Under the pieces are notes generated by a model that made no database searches, was not told the origin of the DNA, and worked only from the letters and a program-made list of their open reading frames with translations. A stretch of DNA of 64,000 bases from Nesterenkonia cremea (GTDB taxonomy: Bacteria; Actinomycetota; Actinomycetes; Actinomycetales; Micrococcaceae): assembly GCF_014642675.1 (NCBI RefSeq), contig NZ_BMIS01000007.1, forward strand, positions 62,001-126,000. The letters run 5' to 3'. Shown piece by piece: positions 41,460 through 46,595 of this stretch. The position numbers and the translations under genes are program-made. The first letter of the stretch is position 1, and each line of letters opens with the position of its first letter.

Positions 41460-42929
41460 ATGCGGACGGCACAGGCGCTCCCTGCGGAGGACTCGGAGGA
41501 AGAGCTCGACCTCATCGCGTTGGGCCGCCGGGTGAGGCACCTGCGCAAGCGGGCCGGTATGACCTTGGACGATCTGGCCGCCGCCCTGGAGACGGCCCCC
41601 TCTCAGCTCTCCCTCCTGGAGAACGGCAAGCGGGAGCCCAAGCTCTCGCAGCTGAACCAGTTGGCCAAGACCTTCGGTCTGAGCTTGGACGACCTCTTCG
41701 GCGCTGAGCCGCCCTCCAAACGCGCCGCCCTGGAGATCGAGCTGGAGAAGGCTCAGCGCGGACCGCTCTACGCCGCGCTCGGCCTGCCGACTGTGCGCAT
41801 CAGCAACCGCCTGCCGATGGACGTGCTCGAGTCTCTGGTCTCCCTGCAGCGCGAGCTGCGGCGCCGACTCGAGGAGCAGGCCGCCACTCCGGAGGAGGCG
41901 CGGCGGGCCAACACCGAGCTCCGCGAGGAGATGCGCCAGAAGAACAACTACTACCCGGAGATCGAGTCCGCGGCCCAAGAGCTCCTTGACGCCGTCGGCC
42001 ACACCGCCGGACCGCTCTCCCACCATGTGGCCGCCGATATCGCCGAACATCTGGGCTATTCGCTGCGGTTCGTGCCGAACCTGCCCAACTCCACGCGTTC
42101 GGTGACCGATCAGCGCAATAAGATCATCTACCTGACCCAGGGCCGCTCCCGGGACTGGGATGCCCGCTCCGTACTGCTGCAGGCCTTGGGCCATGAGGTC
42201 CTGGAGCACACCGAGCCCGAGGACTACTCCGAGTTCCTGCGCCAGCGGGTCTACTCCAATTACTTCGCCGCCTCGCTGCTGATGCCCGAGCGCACCACGG
42301 TGGACTTCCTGCAGAACGCCAAGCAGCGCAAGGAGCTGGCCATCGAGGATCTGCGCGATGCCTTCGCCGTGTCTTATGAGTCGGCCGCCCACCGGTTCAC
42401 CAACCTGGCCACAGAGCACCTGGGCATCACCTGCCACTTCCAGAAGGTGCATGAGTCCGGGATCATCCATAAGGCCTACGAGAACGACGGCGTGAACTTC
42501 CCCGCCGATCACTCCGGAGCCATCGAGGGCCAGACCATCTGCCGGGAGTGGACCTCCCGGCAGGTATTCGACGTGGAGGACAAGTTCCGTTCCTTCCACC
42601 AGTACACCGACACCGGCGTCGGGACCTTCTGGTGCACCGCGCGGACCGAAGCGCACTCCTCAGGCATCTACTCGCTGAGCATCGGAGTGCCCTTCGACCA
42701 TGTGAAGTGGTTCCGCGGACGGGACACCCCCTCGCGGTCGAAGTCGGGCTGTCCGGAGGACCCCACCTGCTGCCGCCAGCCCCCGCCGGAGCTGGCCGAC
42801 ACCTGGGACGGCAACGCCTGGCCGGCCGCCCGCGCCAACACCCACCTGCTGGCTGCGATGCCGCAGGGTGCCTTCCCCGGTGTGGACACCCGCGAGGTCT
42901 ACGAGTTCCTCCAGCGCCACTCTGACTGA
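41460..42929 (+). CDS. ramB: RamB/ScfR-type regulator of acetate metabolism
   Basis: A 489-residue regulator. N-terminal XRE helix-turn-helix (ALGRRVRHLRKRAGMTLDDLAA, then SQLSLLENGKREPKLSQL). An IrrE-like segment follows with HEVLEH (residues about 245-250, a zinc-protease-like HExxxH). The C-terminal short-chain fatty acyl (ScfR) domain has the cluster CPEDPTCC. This architecture is RamB, which in Corynebacterium and Mycobacterium controls isocitrate lyase and malate synthase genes. ATG 41460 is chosen; GGAGG is just 3 nt upstream and TAGACT 8 nt upstream, so it may also be leaderless. It lies 0.8 kb from aceA. Confidence 0.9.
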   Translation: MRTAQALPAEDSEEELDLIALGRRVRHLRKRAGMTLDDLAAALETAPSQLSLLENGKREPKLSQLNQLAKTFGLSLDDLFGAEPPSKRAALEIELEKAQRGPLYAALGLPTVRISNRLPMDVLESLVSLQRELRRRLEEQAATPEEARRANTELREEMRQKNNYYPEIESAAQELLDAVGHTAGPLSHHVAADIAEHLGYSLRFVPNLPNSTRSVTDQRNKIIYLTQGRSRDWDARSVLLQALGHEVLEHTEPEDYSEFLRQRVYSNYFAASLLMPERTTVDFLQNAKQRKELAIEDLRDAFAVSYESAAHRFTNLATEHLGITCHFQKVHESGIIHKAYENDGVNFPADHSGAIEGQTICREWTSRQVFDVEDKFRSFHQYTDTGVGTFWCTARTEAHSSGIYSLSIGVPFDHVKWFRGRDTPSRSKSGCPEDPTCCRQPPPELADTWDGNAWPAARANTHLLAAMPQGAFPGVDTREVYEFLQRHSD

Positions 42930-42981: not shown

Positions 42982-43018
42982 ACCGCCGCCCAGGGGACCT
43001 CGAACCCTGGGCGGCGGT
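42982..43018. terminator. Bidirectional terminator between ramB and the aceA operon
   Basis: A perfect 14-bp stem ACCGCCGCCCAGGG / CCCTGGGCGGCGGT, 9-nt loop. On the minus strand it is followed by TTTTCTC, so it ends the aceA transcript; the other side serves ramB. Confidence 0.85.
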
Positions 43019-43043: not shown

Positions 43044-43646
43044 TCAGGCCGCGGCGCTCATGCGGCGACCTCCTCCGGTCAGCACCGCTGCGCTGCTGGC
43101 GTCCCCGTCCTCGTCATCGTCGAGGTCCGGCTCCCCCGGGCCCAGATGGATGGCCCGGATGGTGCCGTCGGGAAGCCCGGCCAGCTCCTCGGCCCGGATG
43201 AAGAGATCCTGCCAGAGCTGCAGCTCCCCCTCCGACTCCAGACCGAGCAGCGAGATGAACGGCGCCCGGCCGTCCGCCATCAGAGTCCGCGCATTGCGGT
43301 AGACGTGCAGACCGAAGTCCACGATCCCGGCCGAGAGCGGCTGGCCCTCGAACAGGATGCGGCCCTCCTGCCGAGCCAGACCGCGCGGGGTGATGAAAGT
43401 GCACGGCGGCTCGGACAGCTGCTTCTCGATCAGCGCGTGCCAGGAGGCGGCCACATCTCCGGCCTCTCCCAGCGCCTCATCGGAGGCGCCGTCGACGGCG
43501 TCGAGCGCTTCTACCCGGGGACCGAACTCCCGGTGCAGCGTGGCCAGGAAGCTCAGCACATCTGCGGTGAGGACCTCGTTCTGGCGCGGGGCCTGCGGTC
43601 CGGTCAGTGTGATGCCGTTGATGGTGATCGAGCTGGGGGTGTTCAT
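43044..43646 (-). CDS. Short malate-synthase-A-like protein lacking the catalytic half
   Basis: A 200-residue open frame directly downstream of aceA, the usual site of aceB. Residues 1-47 resemble the N-terminus of malate synthase A (EVLTADVLSFLATLHREFGPR). Residues about 83-165 resemble a later block: TPRGLARQEG for the family's RPRGWH, then IVDFGLHVYRNA, PFISLLGLESEGELQLW, DLFIRAEELAGLPDGTIRAI. The segment between (about residues 48-82) has no match, and the protein ends with an acidic tail exactly where the Mg-ligand block (family ETIxAAFEMDEI) should begin. The Mg-binding Glu/Asp and catalytic Asp regions are therefore absent. It has AAAGGAG 8 nt before ATG and no internal stop, so it is translated, not a simple pseudogene. 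Function unknown. Confidence 0.75.
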   Translation of the reverse strand: MNTPSSITINGITLTGPQAPRQNEVLTADVLSFLATLHREFGPRVEALDAVDGASDEALGEAGDVAASWHALIEKQLSEPPCTFITPRGLARQEGRILFEGQPLSAGIVDFGLHVYRNARTLMADGRAPFISLLGLESEGELQLWQDLFIRAEELAGLPDGTIRAIHLGPGEPDLDDDEDGDASSAAVLTGGGRRMSAAA

Positions 43647-43690
43647 CTCTCCGACTCCTTTGTCAGATTCCGTCCACCTGAGTCATCGAC

Positions 43691-45049
43691 TCAGTGGAAC
43701 TGTCCTTCTTCGGTGGAGCCCTTCAGCGCAGTGGTGGAGGACTCAGGGTTCAGCGTGGTGGAGATGGCATCGAAGTAGCCGGTGCCGACCTCACGCTGGT
43801 GCTTGGTGGAGGTGTAGCCGTCGGACTCGGCGGCGAACTCGGCCTCCTGCAGCTCCACATAGGCCTTCATCTGCTCCTCCTTGTAGCCCTTGGCCAGGTT
43901 GAAGGCGGAGTAGTTGAGGCTGTGGAAGCCTGCCAGGGTGATGAACTGGAAGGTGAAGCCCATCTTGCCCAGCTCGTTCTGGAACTTGGCGATGGTCTCG
44001 TCGTCGAGATGCTTCTTCCAGTTGAAGGAGGGCGAGCAGTTGTAGGCCAGCATCTGGTCCGGGTACTCGGCCTTCACCGCCTCGGCGAACTGACGTGCTG
44101 CCTCCAGGTCCGGAGTGCCGGTCTCCATCCAGATCAGATCCGAGTACGGAGCGTAGGCCTTGGCGCGCTCGATGCAGGGCTCGATGCCGTTGGTGACCTT
44201 GTAGAAGCCCTCGGCGGTGCGCTCACCGGTGATGAAGGGCTTATCCCGTTCGTCCACGTCCGAGGTGATCAGCGTGGCGGCCTCAGCGTCAGTGCGGGCG
44301 ATGATCAGGCTGTCGACGTTGTGGACGTCGGCCGCCAGACGCGCCGCCTGCAGCGTGCGGATGTGCTGGCTGGTGGGGATGAGCACCTTTCCGCCGAGGT
44401 GACCACACTTCTTCTCCGAGGCGAGCTGGTCTTCCCAGTGAACACCGGCCGCGCCGGCGTCGATCATGGACTTCATCAGCTCGTAGGCGTTGAGCGGGCC
44501 GCCGAAGCCGGCCTCGGCGTCGGCGACGATCGGGACCACGTAGTCCTCCACGGAACGGACGCCCTCGAGGTACTCGATCTGGTCGGCACGCATCAGCGCG
44601 TTGTTGATGCGGCGGACCACAGTGGGCACCGAATTGGCCGGGTACAGCGACTGGTCCGGGTAGGTGTGGCCGGAGTTGTTGGCGTCGCCGGCGACCTGCC
44701 AGCCGGAGAGGTAGATGGCACGCAGGCCACCCTTGACGTAGTTGACGGCCTGGTTTCCAGAGAGGGCGCCCAGCGAGTTGGTGTACTTGCCGGCTGCGTG
44801 CTCCTCGGTCAGCTGCTTCCACAGCTTCTCCGCGCCGCGCTTGGCCAGAGTCTTCTCCTCCTGCACGGTGCCCTGGAGCTTCACGACTTCGGAGGCGGAG
44901 TAGTCACGGGTGATGTTCTTCCAGCGAGGGTTGGTCTCCCAATCCTTCTGGAGCGCATCCACCTTCTTCTGGAACTCCGACTGCGGCTCCGGCTGGGGAG
45001 CTGCGGTGCCGGCCTGTTCAGCGATGGGGCGGTCGAGCGTCTCGGTCAT
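43691..45049 (-). CDS. aceA: Isocitrate lyase
   Basis: A 452-residue glyoxylate-shunt enzyme cleaving isocitrate to succinate and glyoxylate. The catalytic-loop signature [13 protein letters not shown] has the reactive Cys; [25 protein letters not shown] and [16 protein letters not shown] are further hallmarks. Length is normal. The frame continues to 45220, but ATG 45049 with AAGGAG 6 nt upstream begins the protein. The gene downstream (44-bp gap) is a shortened malate-synthase-like ORF, and RamB lies 0.8 kb away. A TTCTTCG-N6-CGAAGAA palindrome stands upstream. Malate synthase itself must come from elsewhere if the shunt runs. Confidence 0.97.
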
Positions 45050-45148
45050 GAGAATCTCCTTTGAATCGTTGACCGTGCGGTTGGTGCTCTTCCAGTTTTG
45101 CGCCCTTTTCAACCCTTGATCCAGCGGATTCGAAAGAAAGATCTGCAA

Positions 45149-45168
45149 TTCTTCGCGTTTTCGAAGAA
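45149..45168. promoter_or_regulatory. Palindrome upstream of aceA, candidate operator
   Basis: Perfect arms TTCTTCG and CGAAGAA around 6 bp, about 100 nt upstream of the aceA start and 90 nt before the divergent gene. It is not the published RamB motif as I know it, so the binder is open. Confidence 0.4.
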
Positions 45169-45257: not shown

Positions 45258-46595
45258 GTGACCCAGCACCCGCCTGAGAACGAGAACCCTGCCAACGGCC
45301 CCGGGGACACCCCCTCCCCTGAGGACCAGCCCCACCAGCCGGAGCAGCAGCCTCCCTTCGGCGAGCAGTCCACTCAGGCCATGCCTCAGCAGGGCTTCGG
45401 CGAACAGCCGACTCAGGCGATGCCGCCTCAGGACCCCGGCGCCCCGCAGGATGCCCCCTTCAGCGCCGGCTCCGCGCATGATCCCGGGGCCCCCGGCTAC
45501 GGCGCTCCGCAGCAGCCCGGGGGGCCCGGCTACCCCGGCACTCCGCACGACGCCGGCCAACCCGGTCCTGGCCAGCCCGGTCCTGGGCAGCCCGGTCCTG
45601 GGCAGGGCTTCCCCGGCGCTCCGATCTTCCCCGGCCAGGGCGGGCAGCAGCACCACGTCGCCGGCTACCCGGGCGCACCCCAGCAGCCCGGCGGCCCCGG
45701 CCACCCCGGCGGACCTCAGGGCCCCGGCGGCCCCGGTGGACCCGGCGGCCCCGGTGGACCCGGCGGCCCCGGCGGCCAGGAGCCCGAGAAGAAGGGCTTC
45801 TTCGCCCGATTCTGGTGGGCCATCGTGCTGCTCGGTGTGCTCTTCGCCGCACTGATCGCTCTGGTCATCGTGCTGTTCACCATGGACAACGGCGATGACG
45901 AGGACACCGAGGCCGCCACCGAGGACGAGGCCGCCACCGAGGACGAGTCGGATGACGAGGACTCCGCTCAGGAGGATGAGGAAGAGGATCCTGAGGACGA
46001 GGACGCCGTCATCGAAGACGAGGATGACGAAGATGAGGATGACGGCGACGAGGGCACCTTCCCGACCGGCGGCGAAGCCTTCGGCGACGATGAGGGCATG
46101 ATCGTCGGCGAGGACATCGAAGAAGGCACCTACCGCCAGGACGTCGGGGCCGAGGACGATGACTTCGGCTGCTTCTACTCCGTCTGGGAGGACGACGAGG
46201 AAGAGGACGTCATTCACAGCGGCTACAATCCCGGCGGCATCGTGTCCCTCGAAGACGGCATGCTGATGAACTCCCGTGACTGCGGCGAGTGGCTCCCCGT
46301 GGAGGATACCTACCCAGACAGCCCGGACACCGTGGCAGAGAACGGCCAGATGTATGTCATCGGTGAGCACATCGAGGAAGGCACCTACCAGCTGAACTGG
46401 GATGTGGATGACGACGACATGAGCTGCGCCTTCTACGTCTACAGCGATCTCACCGAGTGGGACTGGGAGGACTTCAACGCCTGGTTCGAGGATGAGGACG
46501 AATGGGGAGAGGAAGAGGTCGAGATCCACCTGGGTGCCGGCAACCAGGTCTTCTTCCACAATGACGGCTGCGGTGAGTGGGAGCTCGTCGACTGA
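45258..46595 (+). CDS. Collagen-like, acidic single-pass membrane protein with duplicated C-terminal module
   Basis: A 445-residue protein in four parts. (1) N-terminal cytoplasmic Pro/Gly/Gln region with TQAMP repeats and collagen-like GGPGGPGG and GQPGPGQPGPG runs (to about residue 175). (2) One membrane helix (WWAIVLLGVLFAALIALVIV). (3) An extremely acidic Asp/Glu linker of about 55 residues. (4) Two related extracellular modules of about 70-80 residues, each with GE.IEEGTY at the start, one or more Cys and Trp, and DCGEW or GCGEW at the end. GTG 45258 has AAAGGGGG before it. I know no family for the duplicated module. The TQ repeats recall Ser/Thr-kinase (Pkn) substrates. Confidence 0.75.
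   Translation: MTQHPPENENPANGPGDTPSPEDQPHQPEQQPPFGEQSTQAMPQQGFGEQPTQAMPPQDPGAPQDAPFSAGSAHDPGAPGYGAPQQPGGPGYPGTPHDAGQPGPGQPGPGQPGPGQGFPGAPIFPGQGGQQHHVAGYPGAPQQPGGPGHPGGPQGPGGPGGPGGPGGPGGPGGQEPEKKGFFARFWWAIVLLGVLFAALIALVIVLFTMDNGDDEDTEAATEDEAATEDESDDEDSAQEDEEEDPEDEDAVIEDEDDEDEDDGDEGTFPTGGEAFGDDEGMIVGEDIEEGTYRQDVGAEDDDFGCFYSVWEDDEEEDVIHSGYNPGGIVSLEDGMLMNSRDCGEWLPVEDTYPDSPDTVAENGQMYVIGEHIEEGTYQLNWDVDDDDMSCAFYVYSDLTEWDWEDFNAWFEDEDEWGEEEVEIHLGAGNQVFFHNDGCGEWELVD
45557..45606 (+). repeat. Tandem 15-bp repeat encoding GQPGP
   Basis: Three units close to CAGCCCGGTCCTGGG within the N-terminal Pro/Gly region of the preceding CDS. Confidence 0.7.
45719..45778 (+). repeat. Tandem repeats encoding GGPGGP
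   Basis: Units of GGCCCCGG(C/T)GGACCC repeated through the collagen-like tract. Unit number could vary by slippage. Confidence 0.7.

Follow-up and report, generated by a model that had tools for sequence, protein, structure and literature searches.

Pseudoenzymes are known as a class, and some of them are used as accessory or regulatory subunits. Malate synthase A, the product of aceB (TIGR01344), comprises an N-terminal domain (MS_N, PF20656), a TIM barrel (MS_TIM-barrel, PF01274) and a C-terminal domain (MS_C, PF20659). For malate synthase G, PMC3112382 gives the catalytic residues as Arg 338, the Mg2+ ligands Glu 427 and Asp 455, and the base Asp 631; alignment of the A-form and G-form profiles equates these with the first Arg of VRPRG, the Glu of VLIET, the Asp of GRWDY and the Asp of LMED, respectively. 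The same paper describes malate synthase H of haloarchaea, smaller than the A and G forms, which lost the N-terminal domain and kept the barrel, the active site and the activity.

The protein described here, from Nesterenkonia cremea, is also a shortened malate synthase, but here the N-terminal part remains and the active site is gone. Like the accessory pseudoenzymes, it is a non-catalytic descendant of an enzyme, conserved beside genes of the pathway; it differs from them in keeping only a fragment of the barrel and in having a partner that we can only infer. Our search of the open-access literature (bioRxiv excluded) found no paper on a truncated malate synthase or a malate synthase pseudoenzyme, and a term search of the main text of a Nesterenkonia proteome study (PMC8965627) returned neither isocitrate lyase nor malate synthase. 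A malate-synthase-derived pseudoenzyme with a likely origin, intermediates and a retained promoter element is thus undescribed in the open-access literature searched.

The window, that is, the whole stretch of 64,000 nucleotides analysed, carries the short gene at 43044..43646 on the minus strand, with the ATG at 43646, the stop at 43044, no internal stop and a product of 200 aa. The original prediction, which gave no strand, had placed a 200-residue frame with a good ribosome binding site and neither stop nor frameshift directly after aceA, and all of this was found: a Shine-Dalgarno sequence, AAAGGAGT (43654..43661, minus strand), lies 7 nt 5' of the ATG, and similar ones precede most of the 25 related short copies. 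The aceA gene (43691..45049, minus strand) encodes isocitrate lyase (PF00463, 5.3e-105; NF011645, 767.5 bits against a cut-off of 562) and lies upstream; because the short gene starts only 44 nt downstream of it, the two probably form one transcription unit, an operon. On the plus strand, convergent with the short gene, is a RamB-like regulator gene (41460..42929), whose product has HTH and IrrE-like domains and reaches 58.6 bits with the RamB family NF038139, far below the 700-bit cut-off. An inverted repeat spotted by eye between the convergent genes (42983..43017, no strand assigned; 13 bp, perfect, with a 9-nt loop) is a possible terminator, absent from a hairpin scan with a loop limit of 8. 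Divergently from aceA, positions 45258-46595 of the plus strand encode a protein which, by eye, has a repetitive N-terminus rich in Pro, Gly and Gln, one hydrophobic stretch and a very acidic segment; a Pro-rich protein is encoded in the same neighbourhood in G001 (L150:1238-2824).

Two blocks of malate synthase A had been predicted to survive in the short protein, and Pfam profiles delimit both on the minus strand. Residues 12-48 (43503..43613) match MS_N at 1.6e-7 (31.2 bits; cut-off 23.5), and, beyond a variable middle, residues 84-165 (43152..43397) match MS_TIM-barrel at 2.3e-15 (56.7 bits; cut-off 26.4), over profile positions 3-84 of 248, i.e. the first third of the barrel only. The malate synthase A structure 3cux is matched at 1.2e-20 and the TIGR01344 profile at 1.6e-22, yet the latter score, 79.5 bits, is under the equivalog cut-off of 594.5 bits. 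Residues 169-200 (43047..43142, minus strand) form a C-terminal tail that is acidic in the window copy, as predicted, and variable across the genus; the acidic run DDDEDG occurs in 11 of 26 copies, and an acidic tail was rejected as a defining feature of the family.

Those 26 copies come from 24 of the 30 Nesterenkonia genomes surveyed, the source genome (G000) included, and all have intact frames; one genome, G014, has three. Among genomes at least 90% complete, the gene is present in 23 of 26. The copy in G017 (62% complete) is broken, as is the rpoB gene of that assembly, and no copy was found in G004 (98% complete), G024 (93%), G028 (99%), G008 (65%) or G025 (82%). Twenty-one copies directly follow aceA. 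The other five (G001, G013, the third copy of G014, G015 and G029) lie apart from it, and G001, G013, G015 and G029 each have one aceA without an adjoining short gene and one short gene without an adjoining aceA. An orthologue in G002 is 93% identical; a contig scan gave a single locus, in N. ebinurensis, 58% identical. The original prediction had left room for a very recent deletion or a misassembly in the source strain. With intact short genes in 23 other genomes of the genus, one of them 93% identical, the probability of either is negligible, and both were rejected on the genus survey; the selection and tree data given below speak against them too.

The search was carried beyond the genus. 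At E <= 1e-33, only G000 and G023, both Nesterenkonia, matched among 396 order-level and 394 class-level genomes. Among the matches listed for 245 family genomes, all open frames from outside the genus have at least 337 aa. Any malate synthase shortened independently but scoring like a full-length one would escape notice in these searches. A match was present in 72 plasmid records, every one below 60% identity; among the 20 of these that were listed, those with an annotation bear the name malate synthase A or aldolase/citrate lyase family protein, and several are unannotated.

All 26 copies match both MS_N and MS_TIM-barrel (E <= 1), and none matches MS_C at that threshold; the longest tail beyond residue 168 has 43 aa against the 118 positions of MS_C. 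The copies span 178-227 aa, lengths that depend on the starts we assigned, against about 540 aa for a full-length malate synthase. Sequence and predicted fold both align with malate synthase A over the N-terminal block and the barrel's first third; the other two thirds of the barrel are missing, as are the entire C-terminal domain, the Mg2+ ligands and the catalytic base. The catalytic Arg of VRPRG is replaced by T, S or C in 23 of the 26 copies and retained in three (G003, G009 and G014b), which are the earliest branches in the malate synthase tree. The Mg2+-ligand Glu of VLIET is replaced in every copy and the column of the Mg2+-ligand Asp of GRWDY is a gap in every copy; each of the 33 full-length rows has all three residues. 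One Lys, likewise present in 33/33 full-length rows, is lost from all 26 short copies. The MS_C region, which would hold the base Asp of LMED, is missing, and no such residue was found in the DNA following the window's short gene. Without the Mg2+ ligands and the domain that carries the catalytic base, the short protein cannot, as far as its sequence tells, act as a malate synthase. The predicted loss of everything from the Mg-ligand block onward thus extends to all 26 copies. The C-terminal half, said to be missing from the following DNA, has its only MS_C counterpart in this genome on contig C10 (G000:C10), beside the only whole-barrel match (PF01274 positions 1-247). The gene there is a complete malate synthase, separate from the short gene, which we call aceB2; the short gene as the genome's only malate synthase was accordingly a candidate that we rejected. 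The short protein and the aceB2 product are about 32% identical.

The alignment of the 26 copies has 32 invariant columns. Invariant polar or charged residues, for example R21, E24, H38, R44 and D110, and further R127, E139, E141, E153 and R164, could be taken as signs of small-molecule binding, with glyoxylate, a CoA ester or some other metabolite as the ligand, or of a newly acquired activity, the protein being a sensor, a buffer or an enzyme in its own right; E139, by eye, is not a malate synthase residue. We consider this improbable: the parent's substrate-binding residues are lost, the catalytic Arg in 23 of 26 copies and the Mg2+ ligands in all 26, and several of the invariant residues are common to the parent family and may be structural.

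An AlphaFold2 model of the short protein, built on the 26-row alignment, has a mean pLDDT of 78.6 and a pTM of 0.77; 95 of the 200 residues reach at least 90, and most of the tail is below 50. Its N-terminal part is helical, and a few strands with their helices come after it; by homology, those strands are the first ones of the barrel. The best match among solved structures is malate synthase A 3cux (Z 14.4, 2.8 A over 169 residues), followed by 3cv2/3cuz and then by malate synthase G chains near Z 11; Foldseek returned four matches at E <= 0.001, all malate synthase A. The prediction is thus of a small folded core in which the helical N-terminus and the opening strands of the barrel have been kept. 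Since the barrel is open in the model, the protein may associate with itself or with a partner.

The short gene is held by purifying selection without its catalytic residues. Pairwise dN/dS ranges from 0.04 to 0.24 in 17 pairs; pooling 10 pairs, some of them with branches in common, gives 0.17 for the whole gene and for the N block alike, 0.10 for the barrel block and about 0.30 for middle and tail. In 15 of the same 17 pairs, aceA gives 0.006-0.11, so that selection constrains the short gene, though not as tightly as it does aceA. These values bear on the view that the gene is a decaying relic of aceB without function. Most of the enzyme is indeed gone, the gene is absent from the 98% complete G004, and the middle and tail vary more freely. 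However, intact frames in 24 of 30 genomes, the low ratio in the barrel block, the similar Shine-Dalgarno sequences before most copies and an aceA-type element before each intact copy lacking an adjoining aceA make a relic very improbable.

Where did this gene come from? In five genomes, G024 and G028 of the genus and G030, G032 and G035 of three other genera, a full-length malate synthase gene occupies the same position, directly after aceA. A malate synthase tree of 59 rows (26 short, 33 full-length; 133 shared columns) places all 26 short copies on one branch with support 100/100. A long branch (0.9) leads to them; among the full-length rows, the aceA-linked malate synthase of G024 comes closest, and the other 32 group away from it (97/91). 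Because this closest row is from a sister species and aceA-linked, a single paring-down of the aceB gene next to aceA is probable. In the aceA tree (31 rows), G024 falls just outside the short-bearing species and G004 (97/100, 95/92). The rpoB tree, in which the G035 row was disregarded (wrong reading frame) and the inner forks are partly open, puts G024 in one such open fork with the short-bearing species and only G028 outside (85/90); on this tree the label 'short' needs five changes. Since the branch to the short copies is long and G024 is not placed outside the short-bearing species by rpoB, a history with a single origin is held with less than full confidence.

The most economical account has the gene pared down once, after the G024 lineage had split off, and later lost in G004; the gene was perhaps also lost in G025 and G008, both incomplete genomes. 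To judge from the trees, the origin would most likely have been a single event in an ancestor of most Nesterenkonia, in which the aceB gene downstream of aceA lost an internal stretch and everything past the first third of the barrel. The product, a malate synthase A in miniature that no longer catalyses, would be a pseudoenzyme, and it probably became a helper or regulator of the glyoxylate shunt. That aceB was pared down to a new non-enzymatic protein was one of two readings originally offered, and the intact copies in 24 genomes, the purifying selection, the single clade and its proximity to the G024 gene all support it.

The sequence upstream of aceA suggests how the short gene may be controlled. 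A conserved, operator-like element of 31 bp (TTCTTCGAAAACGCGAAGAATTGCAGATCTT; 45138..45168, minus strand) lies there, and part of it resembles, by eye, a RamB site, whose consensus is quoted as AA/GAACTTTGCAAA in PMC4448153. We built a weight matrix from 17 of 31 aceA sites, picked by hand to leave out poor matches and near-duplicates, with no short-gene site in the training set. It was run over both strands of 46 loci (1,278,492 positions), which surround aceA, short and malate synthase genes and so do not represent a genome-wide background. Thirty-four distinct sites score at least 17, the next best scoring 13.9; 28 are upstream of aceA, and six precede short genes without an adjoining aceA. 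Of the aceA sites, 22 were placed at about 54-120 nt before the start. All five intact copies that lie apart from aceA have the element (27.6-41.2), as does the broken copy of G017 (17.5); no site was found by the matrix at the aceA genes of G028, G030 and G032. In the source genome (3.08 Mb), the core pattern occurs without mismatch once, at aceA, and with two mismatches three times, against one occurrence for the reversed control.

The relocated copies of G001, G014, G015 and G029, which form one clade, resemble aceA beyond the element, through the leader AATCAAAGGAGATTC and into the first codons (71-75% over 143-156 bp against the aceA of G029 or G015), as would fit a duplicated aceA-short unit that lost the body of aceA; between the short copy of G001 and that genome's own aceA leader, the resemblance comes in short pieces only. 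For the G013 copy the resemblance is 70% over 105 bp (E 4e-6), at a site where the flanking genes are as in the window and aceA itself is missing. The element before relocated copies could be partly a remnant of duplication rather than a product of selected co-regulation. Co-regulation of the short gene with isocitrate lyase is nevertheless the best reading of these sequences: the 44-nt gap and the presence of the element at all five intact relocated or aceA-less copies suggest that the short gene is expressed with isocitrate lyase from the aceA promoter.

The reading that we favour, with a probability of roughly 0.6, is that the short protein is a non-catalytic accessory or regulatory protein of the glyoxylate shunt, with isocitrate lyase as its likeliest partner. 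It would most likely act by protein-protein contact, as an accessory or regulatory subunit, and isocitrate lyase comes first because promoter and neighbourhood both point there. A partnership with isocitrate lyase had figured in the original prediction; its support comes from gene neighbourhood and the aceA-type upstream element, physical contact being putative. Translation together with aceA would be unnecessary, given the five intact copies apart from it, and the protein appears dispensable in G004, which has aceA and a full malate synthase and no short gene. More tentatively, a dedicated regulatory or scaffolding subunit of isocitrate lyase may have been carved from the pathway's next enzyme, with one third of a malate synthase barrel and part of the N-terminal domain left; it would have retained an isocitrate-lyase-type promoter even after relocation, and its role in Nesterenkonia would be to control or channel the flux where the glyoxylate shunt branches off.

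Could the short protein act instead on the aceB2 product, as a hetero-oligomer partner or as an inhibitor mimicking part of its barrel and its N-terminal clasp? Malate synthase activity would then be tuned through the aceA promoter. The two proteins are homologous, and in 20 of the 21 aceB2 loci scanned the best element score is at most 10.4 (in the remaining one, that of G004, aceB2 has a divergent aceA as its neighbour), so that a protein link could couple the aceB2 product to aceA control. According to PMC3112382, the haloarchaeal isoform oligomerises via the barrel surface that the N-terminal domain covers in malate synthase A, and multimeric A forms are mentioned, which suggests that such surfaces can make contacts; the solved A and G structures are, however, described there as monomeric. 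The short protein is also nearer in the tree to the aceA-linked malate synthase than to aceB2, and G006 has an aceA-short pair, with a G form as the one full-length malate synthase found there. This last case mildly favours isocitrate lyase over malate synthase A as the partner, the weight being small for a genome 79% complete. We regard an action on the aceB2 product as unlikely.

The family would clearly exemplify how the enzyme encoded next door in an operon can be reduced to a fragment and put to non-catalytic use, and likely intermediates can still be seen: the full-length aceA-linked malate synthases of G024 and G028, and the three short copies that keep the catalytic Arg. It also provides a testable lead on the control of the glyoxylate shunt in these actinobacteria, and a partial malate synthase match beside aceA need not be the enzyme.

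Several individual genomes present features of their own. The aceA-linked malate synthase of G024 (L090:6391-7779 and beyond), the sole malate synthase found in that genome, has a frame interrupted near the C-terminal end, by a sequencing error or by decay. The malate synthase G of G006 (L160, G006:C1:679111-681252) scores 1089.6 bits against a cut-off of 989 and is the sole full-length malate synthase found there. G014 (L065, L072, L087) has a pair of aceA genes (97.5% identity in the columns compared), and behind each stands a short gene, these two being strongly diverged. Its third short copy is relocated, and the DNA upstream of that copy matches the corresponding DNA of G001 at 92% over 351 bp, which is suggestive of interspecies transfer. 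Relocated copies are found beside genes for a GMC oxidoreductase, an amidase and a TRAP transporter in G001, PaaE and an enoyl-CoA hydratase in G029, and PaaZ in G015. By eye, PaaE/hydratase neighbours are common to G029 and G015, the TRAP transporter of G029 is like that of G001, and the short-gene sites of G014 and G013 are without neighbours of these types. Finally, a pair of ramB-like and aceA genes lies near 5-oxoprolinase-like genes, which we take to be of the LamB/YcsF family, in G029, G013 and one locus of G014 (L151, L153 and L087), a recurrent aceA neighbourhood that differs from that of the window.
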